Virus record (IMG/VR): IMGVR_UViG_3300027985_000465
Coordinates: 1-36,499 of that record
Source of the DNA: a virus
Length of the DNA stretch: 36,499 nucleotides
Strand: one strand, 5' to 3'
The stretch's first letter is position 1. Each line of letters begins with the position of its first letter. The position numbers and the translations under genes are program-made. The notes beneath the pieces were generated by a model, which saw only the letters and a list, made by a program, of their open reading frames with translations, ran no database searches and was not told the origin of the DNA. Of this stretch, positions 1 through 36,499 are shown piece by piece.

Positions 1-144
1 GACGTAGATTTAGTTTTAAATGAGTGCTTACGCATATTAAAAAAATGCAATATGTTTATATTTTGTAGTAATAAACAAGTTTCTAAAATTATGAAGTGGG
101 GAGAAGAAAAAGGGTTTTATACTACTTGCTTAGTATGGCATAAA
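1..144 (+). repeat. Terminal direct repeat, left copy
   Basis: Identical over 144 bases with 36356-36499. It lies within the methyltransferase gene, so it reflects a circular or circularly permuted genome closed in assembly rather than a biological terminal repeat. Confidence 0.97.
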
Positions 145-504
145 AATAACTCAGCACCTTTTGCAAATGGAGTATGGCGTGGAGATATTGAATTTTGCAT
201 ACATATTAGAGAAAAAGGAGCGTACTTTGAAGGTTCAGCTAATGAAAAACAAAAAGTTACAACATTGCCTGCTAACCCATCAGAGTTCGGGCATCCTACT
301 GAGAAGCCAATTAGATTAGTCGATAAGTATTTAAGAATTGGAGCTACACAAGGACATAAAGTTTTCGACCCATTCATTGGAAGCGGTACAACTGCTGTAG
401 CTTGTAAATCACTTGGTATTGAATTTGTAGGTTGCGAACTCGAATCCGATTATGTAGCGATAGCCAATAAACGCTTAGAAGCTGTGCAAGGGAGTTTATT
501 TTAA
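1..504 (+). CDS. Beta-class DNA methyltransferase, C-terminal part (continues from 36161-36355)
   Basis: This is the 3' part of a gene cut by the contig ends; joined with 36161-36355 it encodes 232 residues. It probably transfers a methyl group from S-adenosylmethionine to adenine N6 (or cytosine N4) in DNA. Seen here: GHPTEKP, and the SAM-binding motif DPFIGSGTT at about residue 188 of the joined protein. The catalytic DPPY lies upstream at residues 31-34, so the order IV-then-I is that of the beta class. It sits between portal and MuF genes, an unusual place, and has its own promoter and structured leader. No cognate restriction enzyme was seen, so an orphan, protective or regulatory methylase is inferred. 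Confidence 0.93.
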   Translation, partial: DVDLVLNECLRILKKCNMFIFCSNKQVSKIMKWGEEKGFYTTCLVWHKNNSAPFANGVWRGDIEFCIHIREKGAYFEGSANEKQKVTTLPANPSEFGHPTEKPIRLVDKYLRIGATQGHKVFDPFIGSGTTAVACKSLGIEFVGCELESDYVAIANKRLEAVQGSLF

Positions 505-1566: not shown

Positions 1567-1572
1567 TATAAT
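1567..1572 (+). promoter_or_regulatory. Candidate promoter -10 of the HNH1 leader
   Basis: A TATAAT begins directly after the stop codon of the minor head gene and about 90 nt before the HNH start. No convincing -35 is seen. It would start transcription around 1579-1581, just before the structured leader. Confidence 0.5.
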
Positions 1573-1583
1573 AATGATGTAGA

Positions 1584-1654
1584 AAGATTATGCGAGGGGT
1601 TGCCTACAGCCTCCTCAGCATCAACCCTTCACATAATTTTATAAGTCTGAGGAG
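1584..1654 (+). promoter_or_regulatory. Pseudoknot-forming leader that can mask the HNH1 ribosome binding site
   Basis: An outer stem pairs 1584-1592 with 1632-1640 (9 bp, one G-U) and an inner stem pairs 1596-1602 with 1622-1628 (7 bp, one G-U). The loop carries CTCCTCAG (1611-1618), perfectly complementary to CTGAGGAG (1647-1654), which contains the Shine-Dalgarno of the ATG at 1661. Together these form an H-type pseudoknot that would hide the ribosome binding site. A competing hairpin, AGTCT-GAGG-AGACT (1644-1657), would present GAGG in its loop instead. Function is inferred. The methyltransferase leader at 36082-36154 has the same plan. Confidence 0.65.
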
Positions 1655-1660
1655 ACTGCT

Positions 1661-2341
1661 ATGCCAAAAACAATAACATCACAATCAATTCCAGTGTTAA
1701 TAGAAGATTTAGGTACAATTAAAGATTTAAAAGGAAATAAAAAAAGAAGATATGGTATTTATAAATGCTATTGTGGAAATGAATTTAAAGCGTCTACAGA
1801 TAACATTAAAAAAGGTCATACAAACTCGTGCGGTTGCTTAAGAGGCAAAGATATGATTATTAACAGTTTTATACATGGTATGTGTAATCATAAAATATAT
1901 AAAACTTGGGAAGATATGAAGCAAAGGGTAAATAATAAAAACAACCCATCTTATAAAAACTATGGCGGTAGAGGAATAACTATATGTGAAAGATGGTTGC
2001 ATAGCTTTGAAAACTTCCGTGATGATATGCTTCCAACTTGGGAAGAAGGCTTAACACTTGATAGAATAAATAATGACGGTAACTATGAACCTTCTAATTG
2101 CAGATGGGCTAGTAGAACTATACAAACAAGAAATACAAGGGTTCTACGCTCCACAAATACAAGCGGGTATAAAGGAGTAAGCTTCCATAATAGGCAGAAA
2201 AAATGGAATGCAACAATACACCATAATGGTAAAAATAATCATTTAGGGTCTTTTGATACAGCAAAAGAAGCGGCTATTGCTTATGATGCTTATATTATTG
2301 AAAACGACTTAGAACATACTTTGAATTGCTGTAAAAGCTAA
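1661..2341 (+). CDS. HNH homing endonuclease with AP2 DNA-binding domain (HNH1)
   Basis: A 226-residue free-standing endonuclease. The N-terminal third has paired cysteines (KCYCGNEF and SCGCL) that suggest a zinc-binding element. The middle has the phage HNH signature GLTLDRINNDGNYEPSNCRW followed by Q-T-R-N. Residues about 170-220 form an AP2-type DNA-binding domain (SGYKGVSFHNRQKKW, GSFDTAKEAAIAYD). Such enzymes nick or cut DNA to spread their own gene. It separates the minor head gene from the scaffold gene and has its own promoter and leader, consistent with a mobile insertion. A paralogue with the same domains lies on the minus strand at 11597-12214. Confidence 0.9.
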   Translation: MPKTITSQSIPVLIEDLGTIKDLKGNKKRRYGIYKCYCGNEFKASTDNIKKGHTNSCGCLRGKDMIINSFIHGMCNHKIYKTWEDMKQRVNNKNNPSYKNYGGRGITICERWLHSFENFRDDMLPTWEEGLTLDRINNDGNYEPSNCRWASRTIQTRNTRVLRSTNTSGYKGVSFHNRQKKWNATIHHNGKNNHLGSFDTAKEAAIAYDAYIIENDLEHTLNCCKS

Positions 2342-6887: not shown

Positions 6888-7277
6888 ATGAAATTATCAC
6901 AAGTCAATTACGAGACTGATAAGCCAAAAAAAGTAGAGATTACCGACCATAATGGTAAATCGTTTGAACCGAAAGCATTTATTAGCGTTATTTCTATCCA
7001 TTCTGAAACTGGCACAAAAGCTCTACATGAAATGCAAAGAGCTATGATGAAGTTAGCGCAAGAAAATACAGACGTCAATGACATTTCAGAGCAACAAAAA
7101 GCACTAAAAATTGAAGCTATGAGCAAATTGGTTATTGGGTGGGAAGGTATCGAAGATGAAAACGGCAAGCCGATGAAGTTTAACCAAGATAACGCCAAGA
7201 TCGTTTTATCAAATTCTTACATTTCCGATATCGTAGATAAATTTGCATCAAACTTGGGAAACTACCTTACGGCATAG
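6888..7277 (+). CDS. Tail assembly chaperone, short form (gpG-like)
   Basis: A 129-residue protein expressed without frameshifting. It lies between tail tube and tape measure genes, where siphoviruses encode the chaperone that coats the tape measure before tube polymerisation. It contains no recognisable enzyme motif and is charged and helical. The final codons contain the slippery heptamer GGGAAAC (7256-7262), which allows part of the ribosomes to continue into the -1 frame. Confidence 0.82.
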   Translation: MKLSQVNYETDKPKKVEITDHNGKSFEPKAFISVISIHSETGTKALHEMQRAMMKLAQENTDVNDISEQQKALKIEAMSKLVIGWEGIEDENGKPMKFNQDNAKIVLSNSYISDIVDKFASNLGNYLTA

Positions 7278-7754: not shown

Positions 7755-10700
7755 ATGACCGATACAGCATCATTACGAATAGCAGTTGAAACTTCGGACG
7801 TTAAAAAAGCAAATGATGAGTTAAATAAGCTCTCTAATACTTCCGATAAAACTGAAAAATCAGTAAATATAACATCAAAATCTTTTCTATTACTTGGCAC
7901 TGCATTAACAGGTTCAGCAGTAGCAGCAGCGGCACTATTAGCCCCATTTATAAGCCTTTCAGATCAATTCACAGGAATACAATCTAAATTAAAACTTGTA
8001 ACTTCTTCCACAAATGAATTAGCAAGCGCGCAATCAGAATTATTTAAAATTGCCCAAACTACAAGACAAGGTTTTGCTGAAACTGTAGATACTTACTCTA
8101 ATTTTGCTTTAGCAATGGGCGAAATGGGTAAAAGTCAAAAAGATATTTTAAGAACAGTTGAGACTATTAATAAAGCTATTGCTATTAGTGGAGGAACAAC
8201 TCAACAGGCAGCCGCTGCCACTACACAGCTAGGTCAGGCTTTTGCATCGGGAACATTGCGAGGGGATGAACTTAACTCTATCCTTGAAAACTCTAAGGGA
8301 TTGGCGCAAGCTATTGCGGACGGAATGGGAGTTCCTATCGGTCAGCTTAGAACGCTAGGGAGCGAGGGTAAGATAACTGCTGAAATTTTAGCTAATGCCC
8401 TAGAAAAATCTGCCAAATCTGTAGATGATAAATTCTCTAAAGTTGGCAAAACAGTAGACCAATCTATGACTATGGCTAAAAACTCATTACTTCTTGCGGT
8501 AGGGGAGATGGATAAAGCCACTGGAATATCAAAAACATTAGCAGAGGCTATAAGCGGGTTAAGTTCTGTTTTTAGTGATGCGGCTATAGCTATTCACAAA
8601 TTTAACATTGAGATAAATAGACTTCAAGACGTTAGAAAAATAAAAACTTTCGATGACGCAAATACAGCCCTAAAACAAATAGATGATGAGATTAAGTCTC
8701 TAACTACATCTATGAATTTGTCAGACAGAGCAAAACGTGCATTAATGGGTGAAGTACAAGTAAGAGCTAAACTTATTCAATTAAGAGCATCGGAAGCAGC
8801 ATTAAACAGAAAAGTAAACTCAATTGCGGAAGATGAATTAAAAATACAAAATCAAAAAGATGAGGCTTATAAAAATAGACCCGCAAAATCTTTAACAAAA
8901 GAGGAAATAGCAGCAGCTAAAAAAGCTGCAAAAGAAGCACAAAAAGCAGAAGAAGAAAAAGCAAAAGCAATTGAAGATATTACAAATGAAGGTTTCGAGT
9001 TTTCAAAGCAAGTATATGAGAATAGAAAGAAATTAGAGGACGATTTATTTCAAGCTACAGCTTCAAACTATGAAAAAGAGATGGGGCTAATAGCTAAAAA
9101 AGTTGAGGCTATCAAGGGTGTAGGTGTTACCTTAGAAGAAACTACACAATACCAATCTATACTAGAAGAAAATTACCTTGAAAGTGTTTATCAAGATTCA
9201 CAACGTATGTTTGATAAGCTCGATGAAGAAATTATAAAAAGTGCAGAAGAATTAGAAAAGTCATTAGAGTTCAAAATAAAAATAGATTTTGATACGGAAG
9301 GTGATTTTAAAGGTGTTTCTAAAGTAGCTAAACAAATTGAGCTATTAGTAGATGAGACAAAACAATACGAAAGCAATAAAAAGAAAGCTGCAAATAATAC
9401 TAAGCTGCTGGCAAAAGTAGAAGAAGATCACACTAAAAATCAAATAGCTGGATATGCAAATATTTCAGGTGCAATGTCTGAAATGTTTAATGAAGGGTCA
9501 AGAGAAGCAGCAGCATTTAAAGCAATTGAAAGTGGATTAGCCGTTGTAGCAGGTGTGAGAGCTATTATGACTGCTGGTACTGGTGATCCATATACTGCTA
9601 TTCCACGTATGGTAGCTATGGCGGCGATGGTAGCTTCTACACTTCAAAGTGTTGGAATAGCATTTAGTGGTAATGGTAATGTCACTACAACATCAGATGC
9701 TTTTTCATCTATGCAAGCCAATACAGGCACTGGAAGCATTTTAGGAGATACTACAGCTCAGAGCAAATCCATATCAAAATCAATGGAAATACTAGGTGAC
9801 CTTGCAAAGCCTGAGTTTAGAATTATGACCGATATGGCTAGATCATTACAATCTATAGATGATAAGATTGGCGGTGTAACAAGCCTATTAATAAGACAAG
9901 GCGGATTTGCATTTGGAGAAGGGTATACTGGCTTTGATACTGGTTTTGCCAATAATATAACATTAGGTAGCGGAGCATTGAGCATACTAAGCCCAATAAC
10001 ATCATTAACAGATAAACTATTATCTAAGATACCTATTCTAAATATATTCTCTGGGCTTGCATCAGGTCTTTTAAATTCCATTTTGGGTGGTTTATTCGGT
10101 CAAACATCAGTATCACAAACTATGACTGATTCGGGTATATTTTTTGCAGATGCACTATTACAAAATGCAATTGATGAGTTCAACGGTTCTGCATACCAAA
10201 CAATAGCAACTACAGTTAAAAAGAAATCATGGTTTAGCAGTTCTTCAAGTACAACAATATCAACTTATTTTTCAGGGTTAGATGACGAGATAAGCAGACA
10301 GTTCTCTCTAGTCCTTGAAAATCTATATCAAACTACACTTTTGGCAGGAGAAGCATTAGATACATCTGCTTCTAGTATTGAATCTGATTTATCTGATTTT
10401 GTTATAAGTATTGGGAAAATATCTCTTAAAGGGAAAACAGGCGATGAAATACAAGAGACTATATCGTCAATTTTTGGAAAAATAAGCGATGATATCGCAA
10501 AAGACGTATTCCCATTATTAACAGACTTCCAAAAAGTAGGTGAGGGCTTATTTGAAACAATGACCCGTGTAGCTTCTGGAATGGAAGAAGCTGAATACTA
10601 TATTAATCGACTAGGTAAGCAATTTAATGATATTGTATATACTGATCTTTTAAATAAACAAGGCGATGTAGCACTAGAAGCATTACGCCAGTCTATCATT

Positions 10701-11600
10701 AATTTAGAAGGGACTGCAAGCGGAGTATCCGAAATAATCCAATCTTTCAGCGGTGATGTTGAGGAGCTATATAGCACCTATTCATCGCTTGATCTTTTAC
10801 GTTTTGATCTCACAGCTATAGGAACTTCAACCGATGCACTTACATCATCTATGTTATATGGGGCTGGTGGCATTAATGCTCTATCAGATGCGACACAAAA
10901 TTACATCGAAAACTATTTGAGTGAATCCGAACAAGTAGCTTATAACACGTCGGTAATGACTGATAAGTTCAATGATTTAGGTCTAACTATCCCTACTACC
11001 AAACAAGGGTTTACCGATCTATTAAAATCTATTGATGTTACAACCGAAAGTGGGCAAGATTTATATGGTCGCTTAATTTTGCTTTCCGATGGGTTTAATA
11101 GCCTAGTGGAATCATCAGATAGTATAAAATCATCCCTATTTGATAATATACAGTCATTTATTGATAGCATAAGCGGAAATACATCGCTTGATGCTCCTAA
11201 AACATTTAGCGAGTTTACATCATCCTTCAACAGCATGGTAGATGCAATAGCAAATGGTTCGAGTGACCTAGAGTCTATAGGTAAAACTACATTAGACAAT
11301 GCCCAAAACTATCTTAATACTGTAACAGCTACAGCAACATCAAGCAGAGACATTGCATTTGCTAAAGCTATACTTATTAATAAGTTCAGTGGAGTAATTG
11401 CAACACCAGATACAACACTAAATACAATTAATGATACATTGAAGTTCTCGTTAGGAGAAAGCGGAGTTATTGTTCATGAGCTAAAAGAATTAAGAGATCA
11501 AATTAAGTATCTGAATGATCTTAATACCACCAATACGGCTACAAATTTGAAAATACTTTCTACCCAAAGAAGTATCTTAGGCGAAACTGCAACGGCTTAA
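7755..11600 (+). CDS. Tail length tape measure protein
   Basis: At 1281 residues, by far the longest gene. The N-terminal part has a typical tape measure region: SDQFTGIQSKLKLVTSSTNE, then TRQGFAETVDTYSNFALAMG, the AISGGTTQQAAAATTQLGQA block, and GDELNSILENSKGLAQAIAD. A long lysine/glutamate coiled coil covers about residues 370-560. Hydrophobic segments follow near residues 590-640 and 735-780. With the usual 1.5 angstrom per residue the tail would be about 190 nm (calculation, not measured). No lysozyme or peptidase motif is evident. The stop overlaps the convergent HNH2 stop. Confidence 0.93.
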   Translation: MTDTASLRIAVETSDVKKANDELNKLSNTSDKTEKSVNITSKSFLLLGTALTGSAVAAAALLAPFISLSDQFTGIQSKLKLVTSSTNELASAQSELFKIAQTTRQGFAETVDTYSNFALAMGEMGKSQKDILRTVETINKAIAISGGTTQQAAAATTQLGQAFASGTLRGDELNSILENSKGLAQAIADGMGVPIGQLRTLGSEGKITAEILANALEKSAKSVDDKFSKVGKTVDQSMTMAKNSLLLAVGEMDKATGISKTLAEAISGLSSVFSDAAIAIHKFNIEINRLQDVRKIKTFDDANTALKQIDDEIKSLTTSMNLSDRAKRALMGEVQVRAKLIQLRASEAALNRKVNSIAEDELKIQNQKDEAYKNRPAKSLTKEEIAAAKKAAKEAQKAEEEKAKAIEDITNEGFEFSKQVYENRKKLEDDLFQATASNYEKEMGLIAKKVEAIKGVGVTLEETTQYQSILEENYLESVYQDSQRMFDKLDEEIIKSAEELEKSLEFKIKIDFDTEGDFKGVSKVAKQIELLVDETKQYESNKKKAANNTKLLAKVEEDHTKNQIAGYANISGAMSEMFNEGSREAAAFKAIESGLAVVAGVRAIMTAGTGDPYTAIPRMVAMAAMVASTLQSVGIAFSGNGNVTTTSDAFSSMQANTGTGSILGDTTAQSKSISKSMEILGDLAKPEFRIMTDMARSLQSIDDKIGGVTSLLIRQGGFAFGEGYTGFDTGFANNITLGSGALSILSPITSLTDKLLSKIPILNIFSGLASGLLNSILGGLFGQTSVSQTMTDSGIFFADALLQNAIDEFNGSAYQTIATTVKKKSWFSSSSSTTISTYFSGLDDEISRQFSLVLENLYQTTLLAGEALDTSASSIESDLSDFVISIGKISLKGKTGDEIQETISSIFGKISDDIAKDVFPLLTDFQKVGEGLFETMTRVASGMEEAEYYINRLGKQFNDIVYTDLLNKQGDVALEALRQSIINLEGTASGVSEIIQSFSGDVEELYSTYSSLDLLRFDLTAIGTSTDALTSSMLYGAGGINALSDATQNYIENYLSESEQVAYNTSVMTDKFNDLGLTIPTTKQGFTDLLKSIDVTTESGQDLYGRLILLSDGFNSLVESSDSIKSSLFDNIQSFIDSISGNTSLDAPKTFSEFTSSFNSMVDAIANGSSDLESIGKTTLDNAQNYLNTVTATATSSRDIAFAKAILINKFSGVIATPDTTLNTINDTLKFSLGESGVIVHELKELRDQIKYLNDLNTTNTATNLKILSTQRSILGETATA

Positions 11601-12214
11601 ACAACACCGTTTGTAGTATGCTCTAAATTATTTTCGACAACGTAATAGTCATACGCTTTAGCGGCTTCTAAAGCTGTATTAAATCTTCCTATTGTTATTG
11701 TTTTTTTATTTATTGTTATTCTAGAATCCCACTTATTTCTATCTTTTTTAAATGTTACACCTCTATATCCGCTGCTATTAGTATTCATAAGTATTCTTGT
11801 ATTTCTTGCTTGTGTATTTCGTATCGCCCATCTACAGTTAGAAGTTTCATAGTCTCCATTTACATTTATTCTATCTATTGATAGACCTTCTTTATAAGTT
11901 GGGTACATATCTTCAATGAAATTTTTAACATCATTCCATCTTTCGCATACTTTTATTCCCCTACCACCATAATCTTTATATGCTAATTGTTTTTGATTAT
12001 TACATCTTTGCATCATTGCATTCCATATATGATAAATCTTATGTTTTGTAGATTTATGTGTTGTTCTAGCGCACCCACAAGATTTTTGCTTTTTAAGATT
12101 TGTTGAATTTATTTCACATATATTTCCACAGTGACATTCAACTAAAAAAAATCTTATTTTTACCCCTTTCTTATTAGCTCTTGTTCCTAAATCTTTTTTT
12201 ATTAATAACGCCAT
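11597..12214 (-). CDS. HNH homing endonuclease with AP2 domain (HNH2), antisense in the tail module
   Basis: A 205-residue paralogue of HNH1. It has N-terminal cysteines (VECHCGN, SCGCAR), the HNH signature GLSIDRINVNGDYETSNCRW followed by QARNTR, and a C-terminal AP2 domain (SGYRGVTFKKDRNKW, GRFNTALEAAKAYDYYVVEN). It is the only minus-strand gene within the structural region and lies tail-to-tail with the tape measure gene, sharing 4 bases at the stops. That tight fit suggests targeted insertion between tail genes. It probably uses the minus direction of the symmetrical promoter at 12234-12245. Confidence 0.9.
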   Translation of the reverse strand: MALLIKKDLGTRANKKGVKIRFFLVECHCGNICEINSTNLKKQKSCGCARTTHKSTKHKIYHIWNAMMQRCNNQKQLAYKDYGGRGIKVCERWNDVKNFIEDMYPTYKEGLSIDRINVNGDYETSNCRWAIRNTQARNTRILMNTNSSGYRGVTFKKDRNKWDSRITINKKTITIGRFNTALEAAKAYDYYVVENNLEHTTNGVV

Positions 12215-24761: not shown

Positions 24762-24840
24762 TGGTGCCTCCAGCAGGATTTGAACCTGCAACCTATAGGC
24801 TAGCAAAGTCCTATTGTTCTATCCATTGAACTATGGCGGC
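24762..24840 (-). tRNA. tRNA-like gene with enlarged anticodon loop (Gln-like, isotype uncertain)
   Basis: The cloverleaf is recognisable. It has a 7-bp acceptor with one G-A mismatch, a D arm (GTTC/GAAC), an anticodon stem ATAGG/CCTAT, a 5-nt variable loop, a T arm (GCAGG-TTCAAAT-CCTGC) and an encoded CCA. The anticodon loop is ACTTTGCTAG, 10 nt instead of 7. After C-T the triplet is TTG (Gln); shifting by one gives TGC (Ala). It is three bases longer than a standard tRNA. It may be degraded, or adapted to non-standard decoding. It is co-oriented with the tRNA-Ser just upstream. Confidence 0.7.
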
Positions 24841-24843
24841 ATT

Positions 24844-24928
24844 TGGCGGGTAGTATAGGACTCGAACCTATAAGAGTTTTACCTCGACAGGTTAGCAACC
24901 TGCTTCATTGCCGTTATGATAACTACCC
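24844..24928 (-). tRNA. tRNA-Ser (anticodon GCT)
   Basis: An 85-nt tRNA with a perfect 7-bp acceptor (GGGTAGT/ACTACCC), a D arm TCAT/ATGA, an anticodon stem GCAGG/CCTGT with loop TTGCTAA giving anticodon GCT, and a long variable arm (GAG/CTC) typical of tRNA-Ser. The T arm is ATAGG-TTCGAGT-CCTAT, and the CCA is encoded. It would read AGC and AGT codons. Confidence 0.92.
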
Positions 24929-26432: not shown

Positions 26433-26441
26433 TGGTATAAT
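26433..26441 (+). promoter_or_regulatory. Extended -10 promoter
   Basis: TGGTATAAT is an extended -10 element that begins right after the upstream stop codon. The predicted start point is near 26448, upstream of a pseudoknot-like element and the gene at 26666. Confidence 0.6.
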
Positions 26442-26466
26442 ACTGATACGTAAAACATTTCTAAAA

Positions 26467-26538
26467 AGTGATAGGAAGTTCTTGACGGTTCTTCTGCCTA
26501 TCACTGTTTAGAGTTGTCTATGTGTGAAGAACCGTCAA
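26467..26538 (+). ncRNA. Candidate H-type pseudoknot in the leader of the 26666 operon
   Basis: Stem 1 pairs AGTGATAGG (26467-26475) with CCTATCACT (26497-26505), 9 bp. The 21-nt loop contains TTGACGGTTCTTC (26482-26494), which is perfectly complementary over 13 bp to GAAGAACCGTCAA (26526-26538). A competing hairpin GTGAAG/CTTCAC (26524-26529 with 26540-26545) overlaps stem 2. The 26442-26665 leader has no well-supported gene, though a 27-codon ORF without ribosome binding site lies at 26572-26655. It may be a riboregulator of the downstream operon or an independent small RNA. Confidence 0.6.
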
Positions 26539-36065: not shown

Positions 36066-36071
36066 TATAAT
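36066..36071 (+). promoter_or_regulatory. Candidate promoter -10 of the methyltransferase leader
   Basis: TATAAT lies just after the 45-residue gene and about 90 nt before the methyltransferase ATG, matching the distance in the HNH1 leader. No -35 element is evident. Confidence 0.5.
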
Positions 36072-36081
36072 TGTCTTGTTA

Positions 36082-36154
36082 TGAGTTGATAGAGTGGATA
36101 GAGATAACGACCTCCCATCCGCTTTATCCATTCTATCAATTTATTGGGTGGGAG
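36082..36154 (+). promoter_or_regulatory. Stem-loop leader whose loop can mask the methyltransferase ribosome binding site
   Basis: A 22-bp stem with several G-U pairs joins 36082-36103 and 36122-36143. Its 18-nt loop contains CTCCCATCC (36112-36120), complementary over 9 bp (one G-U) to GGGTGGGAG (36146-36154). That segment includes the Shine-Dalgarno of the ATG at 36161. This makes an H-type pseudoknot with the same plan and the same 6-nt gap between ribosome binding site and start as at 1584-1654. Functional role inferred. Confidence 0.66.
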
Positions 36155-36160
36155 TCCAAA

Positions 36161-36499
36161 ATGAACTTTGAAATGAACAAAATATACAACATGGACTGTT
36201 TGGAGTTTATGAAACAAGTTCCTGATAAGTATTTTGATTTGGTGCTTACTGATCCCCCTTATGAAATATCAAAGTCAGATCCGGGCAATAGTTCAATAAT
36301 GTCATTGGGTAAATTTTCAAGCGTTGGAAAGTTAGCTGATATTAGTGATGGATTTGACGTAGATTTAGTTTTAAATGAGTGCTTACGCATATTAAAAAAA
36401 TGCAATATGTTTATATTTTGTAGTAATAAACAAGTTTCTAAAATTATGAAGTGGGGAGAAGAAAAAGGGTTTTATACTACTTGCTTAGTATGGCATAAA
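36161..36499 (+). CDS. Beta-class DNA methyltransferase, N-terminal part (continues at 145 via the circle; 36356-36499 duplicates 1-144)
   Basis: This is the 5' part of the gene whose end is at 504. The start ([20 protein letters not shown]) and the catalytic motif [11 protein letters not shown] at residues 27-35 are here; DPPY favours N6-adenine methylation. GGGAG ends 6 nt before the ATG and lies inside the predicted pseudoknot. The reading frame continues into base 1 without interruption (195 nt before the repeat). Confidence 0.92.
36356..36499 (+). repeat. Terminal direct repeat, right copy
   Basis: Exact copy of bases 1-144. Removing it gives a circle of 36,355 bp and an intact methyltransferase gene. 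Confidence 0.97.

Follow-up and report, generated by a model that had tools for sequence, protein, structure and literature searches.

The genes for a DNA methyltransferase and for HNH1, a homing-type endonuclease, each follow a leader that is probably an H-type pseudoknot hiding the ribosome binding site, and the letters of these leaders suggest a built-in translational brake on insertion genes. Both lie in the window, by which we mean the whole 36,499-nt stretch analyzed here (IMGVR_UViG_3300027985_000465), a circular phage contig. An exact 144-base repeat occupies both ends (1–144 = 36356–36499), which makes the record circular and carries the methyltransferase gene across the join. Around that join the head operon runs, in order, terminase, DUF4055 portal, methyltransferase, MuF-like protein, HNH1, and scaffold.

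Two Leaders With One Plan

An earlier note on this DNA had proposed that the two leaders share a plan—TATAAT, a long stem, a loop carrying an anti-Shine-Dalgarno, the Shine-Dalgarno (SD), six bases, and ATG. We recovered this plan in both leaders, at positions that agree with those the note gave, and in neither case did any of 300 dinucleotide shuffles reach the native fold. The features are as follows:

36066–36071 (+): TATAAT, with 9 nt between it and the stem; likely −10 box of a promoter belonging to the methyltransferase itself
36081–36103 (+): stem S1, 5′ arm, methyltransferase leader; pairs with 36122–36144
36112–36121 (+): anti-SD in the loop (S2, 5′ arm), methyltransferase leader; pairs with 36145–36154
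36122–36144 (+): stem S1, 3′ arm, methyltransferase leader; pairs with 36081–36103
36145–36154 (+): S2, 3′ arm, with SD GGGAG, methyltransferase leader; then 6 nt and ATG at 36161
36161–36499 (+): DNA methyltransferase, N-terminal part; continues at 145–504; 232 aa in total
1–504 (+): DNA methyltransferase, C-terminal part (N6_N4_Mtase, PF01555); 1–144 repeats 36356–36499
1567–1572 (+): TATAAT, with 11 nt between it and the stem; likely −10 box of a promoter belonging to HNH1 itself
1584–1602 (+): stem S1, 5′ arm, HNH1 leader; pairs with 1622–1640; covariation
1611–1618 (+): anti-SD in the loop (S2, 5′ arm), HNH1 leader; pairs with 1647–1654; covariation
1622–1640 (+): stem S1, 3′ arm, HNH1 leader; pairs with 1584–1602; covariation
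1647–1654 (+): S2, 3′ arm, with SD GAGGAG, HNH1 leader; then 6 nt and ATG at 1661; covariation
1661–2341 (+): HNH1, HNH-AP2 homing-type endonuclease, 226 aa (Pfam AP2; PHROG 374 HNH endonuclease, 4e-66)

In the methyltransferase leader, S1 comprises 23 bp (G–U counted) and the loop helix S2 comprises 10 pairs, one of them G–U, for a joint stacking energy of −53.7 kcal/mol; crude geometry suggests that the lowest ~6 pairs of this S1 must open for the pseudoknot to form. The HNH1 leader has 18 pairs and one C–A mismatch in S1 and 8 pairs in S2, together −33.4 kcal/mol (best shuffle, −30.4). Our plan scanner looks for a pair of interlocked helices in which the SD region falls within the second. 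Applied to all starts of ORFs of at least 40 codons on both strands of the window, it ranked both leaders at the top of the sites hiding an SD; a site without an SD, 26458 (−), scored −40.4, between the two. The two leaders had also been called unrelated in sequence, which holds for the stems and loop helices and is qualified by weak common words, seen by eye only (UAC..C before the anti-SD, UUUAU after the stem, and CTGCA before the ATG in some members).

Two other structured stretches of the window also have a TATAAT. At 26436–26538 (+), in a gap between early genes, the box is followed by another interlocked helix pair with no SD in it; the first helix (GTGATAGG/CCTATCAC) joins 26468–26475 to 26497–26504, the second (TTGACGGTTCTTC/GAAGAACCGTCAA) joins 26482–26494 to 26526–26538, and the element may represent a small RNA or a further leader. 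The core scaffold gene also has this box, and its leader region (2357–2420, +) contains two small hairpins, of which the first differs in the relatives G001 and G002 with pairing maintained, and the SD region (TCCTTTGTGAGGA) is kept in both. Two neighboring tRNA genes lie at 24765–24928 (−).

Insertion Genes and the Recurrence of the Leader

The suggestion that both genes are insertions into the head operon is supported by relatives of this phage. In G001 the portal gene adjoins MuF, with no methyltransferase between them, and in both G001 and G002 HNH1 is absent and other sequence fills the MuF–scaffold interval. HNH1-type genes also differ in location among contigs; that of L285, for instance, is close to the terminase gene, and that of G002 lies on the opposite strand.

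Scanning viral contigs with the HNH1 loop helix alone returned 44 stretches, 10 of which carry an HNH1-like leader (L199, L206, L207, L212, L213, L219, L228, L232, L235, and L238). Nine of these precede HNH genes; that of L212 precedes a 110-aa protein without a family match. A second scan, with the loop-helix core plus linker, gave 30 stretches and four new members (L281, L285, L289, and L292), where loop–SD pairing of CCTCCAAG/CTTGGAGG or CCTCCACG/CGTGGAGG replaces that of the window. The methyltransferase-type scan returned 29 stretches, and only one, L250, has a homologous leader, with pairing kept, before an unrelated 97-aa protein of unassigned kind. With this one close homologue, covariation lends the methyltransferase leader thin support.

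The same plan, built from different stem and loop sequences, precedes an HNH/NUMOD3 protein in L250, another HNH protein in G005, a DUF559 protein in L230, DUF723 and AP2 proteins in L205 and L216, and, as found in an HNH search, an HNH-type protein in L021. In G002 the gene behind it encodes a NUMOD3 protein with a match to a homing endonuclease PHROG; by our reading of its N-terminus, this protein looks GIY-YIG. Relatives thus carry the leader in front of several kinds of endonuclease, HNH and GIY-type/NUMOD3 among them, which supports the earlier note's idea of an element shared by insertion-type genes and shows it to be conserved. The contig carrying the L216 AP2 endonuclease and its plan-type leader also contains a group I intron (Rfam; 6903–7120, −).

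Across 15 stretches from the window phage and its relatives (303,750 bases), 13 leaders scored −26 or better, compared with 0.25 per shuffled set (eight sets). The genes that follow them are 10 homing endonucleases, one methyltransferase, and two unknowns. These contigs were not chosen blind, having come to notice through a pattern scan or through the methyltransferase; near-identical contigs were counted apart, and five of the 13 leaders, before four endonucleases and one unknown, had no role in the choice. Considered from the side of the genes, 25 endonuclease- or methyltransferase-like ORFs on 14 contigs include 13 endonucleases with the leader, together with the window's methyltransferase. 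The leader is missing from five endonuclease and five other methyltransferase entries, the remaining entry being the second piece of the window's methyltransferase; no other methyltransferase found in the contigs examined has one. The endonucleases without it in the window phage and relatives are HNH2 of the window, two in G005, one in G018, and a 64-aa fragment in G002. HNH2, the second HNH endonuclease (11597–12214, −), adjoins the window's longest ORF (7755–11600).

The fold is no general property of HNH genes, since only 14 of 190 HNH-type loci from two collections were strong, in that at most one of 60 shuffles did as well (a candidate fold of any kind was seen at 112); we accordingly dropped the notion that all HNH leaders have it. 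Nor is the plan restricted to insertions, given that a similar one precedes a major head protein in L236 (1767–2717, −), a DnaB-like helicase fragment in L025 (2511–2975, +), and genes of GC-rich phages (L256, L258, and L264). SD-hiding pseudoknots may be more widespread in phages than their occurrence at insertion genes would suggest. None of 12 endonuclease leaders from cultured phages was of comparable strength, and several of their starts overlap the preceding gene. Neither leader had a real homologue among 50,697 phage records searched with blastn, and a portal-protein scan of viral contigs found no relatives.

Compensatory Change in the HNH1 Family

A search of relatives for co-variation had been set in advance as the test on which the proposed pairing could fail, and in the HNH1 family loop and SD do co-vary. 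Our alignment (A4) holds ten leaders, nine of them distinct; L219, L232, L235, L238, L289, and L041 were omitted as near copies of, or from the same contig as, rows that were kept. Over S1 and S2 of the nine distinct leaders, 94.1% of 170 cells are paired and eight pairs show two-sided changes, a result matched by 0 of 500 shuffles, and sliding the partner by 1–3 columns left at most 53.7% of cells paired and three two-sided pairs. Of the five covariation measures, one, further pair types, was matched by 49 of 500 shuffles.

These counts bear on the possibility that the complementarity is due to chance, or that the stem is only a 5′ mRNA stabilizer and the loop–SD match incidental. In favor of that account, the tool could count no more than three S2 pairs unless the alignment was shifted; however, two of the three change on both sides, with 100% of cells paired, and the 13 leaders found stand against 0.25 expected, so we regard it as extremely unlikely. 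The aligner placed a gap at the end of S2, and we therefore also applied a hand rule to its nine pairs. By this rule a single cell is unpaired, the outermost one of the window's leader, and in three of nine rows one base is lost on both sides at once. The HNH1-family fold thus has the two interlocked helices of an H-type pseudoknot, backed by compensatory change.

Within the HNH1 subfamily the linker UUUWUAAGU is near-invariant. Such constancy would suit a riboswitch, in which the pseudoknot binds a small molecule, and riboswitches are among the pseudoknots that hide an SD. Yet the leaders matched no Rfam family at gathering score, gave chance-level matches only at relaxed thresholds (E up to 10), and have no sequence core common to the subfamilies, as judged by eye. 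The ligand sensing proposed in the earlier note thus found no backing, and a riboswitch seems very unlikely to us. Temperature sensing, also proposed there, fares poorly as well; at −12.9 to −25.8 kcal/mol of stacking, the S2 loop helices (7–12 bp) are probably too stable for melting.

A Unit Bounded by a Likely Promoter

In 11 of 20 leaders TATAAT ends 7–12 nt ahead of S1, and the transcripts we infer would therefore retain the whole stem; in L301 the box lies 16 bases before it. If these boxes are promoters, the mRNA would start a few bases before the stem. Homology, too, begins at the box. Among seven HNH1-type leaders (21 pairs), identity averages 0.80 from the −10 box to the ATG; in the 45 nt upstream of the box it averages 0.59 vs. 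0.58 when shuffled. The −10 box is therefore where the inherited unit starts. When we scanned for a promoter and spacer alone, leaving pairing aside, 70 matches came up, four of them strong, and no new family member; three of the strong matches were already known, and the fourth, L380, has a weak plan and a 56-aa ORF.

Fold Stability and a Proposed Brake

The enclosing stem has 17–23 pairs in 17 of 20 leaders. In a crude A-form model with assumed parameters, a 6–7-nt linker can span about 15–18 bp of stem, and in several leaders the fully zipped stem leaves 0–6 linker bases, which would strain the pseudoknot unless lower pairs open. With some lower pairs opened where needed, rough estimates (using an assumed pseudoknot penalty of 9.6 kcal/mol) favor the pseudoknot over the bare hairpin in 19 of 19 leaders, by 0.4 to ~22 kcal/mol. 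The lower stem also extends into the linker beyond chance: 134 pairs vs. 71 ± 13 in shuffles, leaving 60 nt of linker vs. 119 ± 20 (19 leaders, 100 shuffles; totals inflated by the relatedness of the leaders, with L228 omitted as a near copy of the L308 leader).

As selfish genes, homing endonucleases need to be kept almost silent within operons that are strongly transcribed. In the model that we propose, the gene's own TATAAT promoter would set the RNA 5′ end a few bases before the ~20-bp stem, the loop anti-SD would pair with the downstream SD, and 30S ribosomes would be blocked until the fold opens. With the SD forming one strand of a 7–12-bp helix, low translation is expected unless it does. 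Promoter, leader, and gene would travel as a cassette, mostly of free-standing homing endonucleases (HNH, GIY-type, and DUF559/DUF723 types) and at times of other accessory genes such as the window's methyltransferase. With the brake in place, a possibly harmful insertion could persist at low expression even though the head operon around it is actively transcribed.

How the fold opens and closes admits several accounts. In one, the leader is a timer: the full 20-bp hairpin forms first, during RNA synthesis, with the SD free, and the lower pairs later open so that the loop captures the SD, allowing brief translation per mRNA. The excess of lower-stem pairs, the narrow range of stem lengths, and the position of the SD strand as the last to be transcribed all favor it, while the relatedness of the leaders swells the totals and the 6-base linker of the HNH1 subfamily is nearly enough by itself, such that little opening would be needed; we consider the timer possible, if on the unlikely side. 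The fuller proposal—that promoter and pseudoknot leader form a transferable expression module, shared within one phage group by unrelated homing endonuclease families as well as by other insertion genes, and acting as a timer—we put forward tentatively, as rather unlikely; were it true, each transcript would give a short burst of translation before the pseudoknot shuts the mRNA.

The length of RNase III substrates is the basis of another reading, in which the long stem is a cleavage site and a double cut removes the anti-SD and switches the gene on. The stems are about two helical turns long and this length is kept though the sequence is not, but cleavage of a single strand would leave the SD paired, and we judge the reading improbable. 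A protein might instead bind the leader, such as the encoded endonuclease repressing itself. T4 gp32 and I-TevI are described as autoregulators (PMC3014915, PMC2988022); on the other side, the same plan, with unrelated stem sequences, precedes unrelated proteins, which makes protein binding a distinctly improbable explanation.

The built-in brake is the reading that we favor, and a likely one. Known RNA control of homing endonucleases rests on a few T4-type hairpins, and a pseudoknot leader placed at the promoter start, before diverse endonuclease families and a methyltransferase, would show a portable brake. A leader that is variable in sequence and constant in plan also offers a sequence-based means of recognizing insertion genes even where their products lack a known domain.

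Comparison With Known Systems

The preQ1 and SAM-II riboswitches are pseudoknots that sequester the SD. As in the leaders described here, the SD is the 3′ strand of their second helix; the present leaders differ in matching no Rfam aptamer family and in having no common ligand core. In the open-access literature we found no report of SD-hiding pseudoknot leaders of homing endonucleases (subscription journals and preprints fell mostly outside this search).

Two further phage leaders invite comparison. The T4 gene 32 pseudoknot, 67 nt upstream of the start, nucleates gp32 binding (PMC3014915); like the present leaders it is a phage-leader pseudoknot controlling translation, and unlike them it is not described there as pairing with the SD itself. 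In seg43(25) of Aeromonas phage 25, a very stable hairpin lies directly 5′ of the homing endonuclease RBS without covering it, and its role was left open (PMC2988022). The position of this hairpin is alike, and we considered it as a case of the same plan; its 6-nt loop, GATAAA, differs in having no anti-SD, and we rejected it. A different upstream stretch could pair with the seg43(25) SD.

The nearest parallel in purpose is with I-TevI, Aeh1 mobE, and T4 segB, whose hairpins hide the RBS and whose late promoters are placed so that late RNA lacks the structure, according to two reviews (PMC3014915, PMC2988022). A leader structure there blocks, and here would block, an endonuclease RBS within a phage operon. 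HNH1 and its relatives are likewise HNH and other homing-type endonucleases; the window's methyltransferase gene is not one. Two differences from the T4-type cases, as those reviews describe them, stand out. Here the SD pairs with the loop of an upstream hairpin, whereas there the SD or AUG lies in a simple nested hairpin; and here the likely promoter lies outside the whole structure, whereas there the transcripts lack the 5′ arm. The present leaders would thus resemble the known RBS-hiding hairpins in aim and differ from them in fold and in promoter placement.
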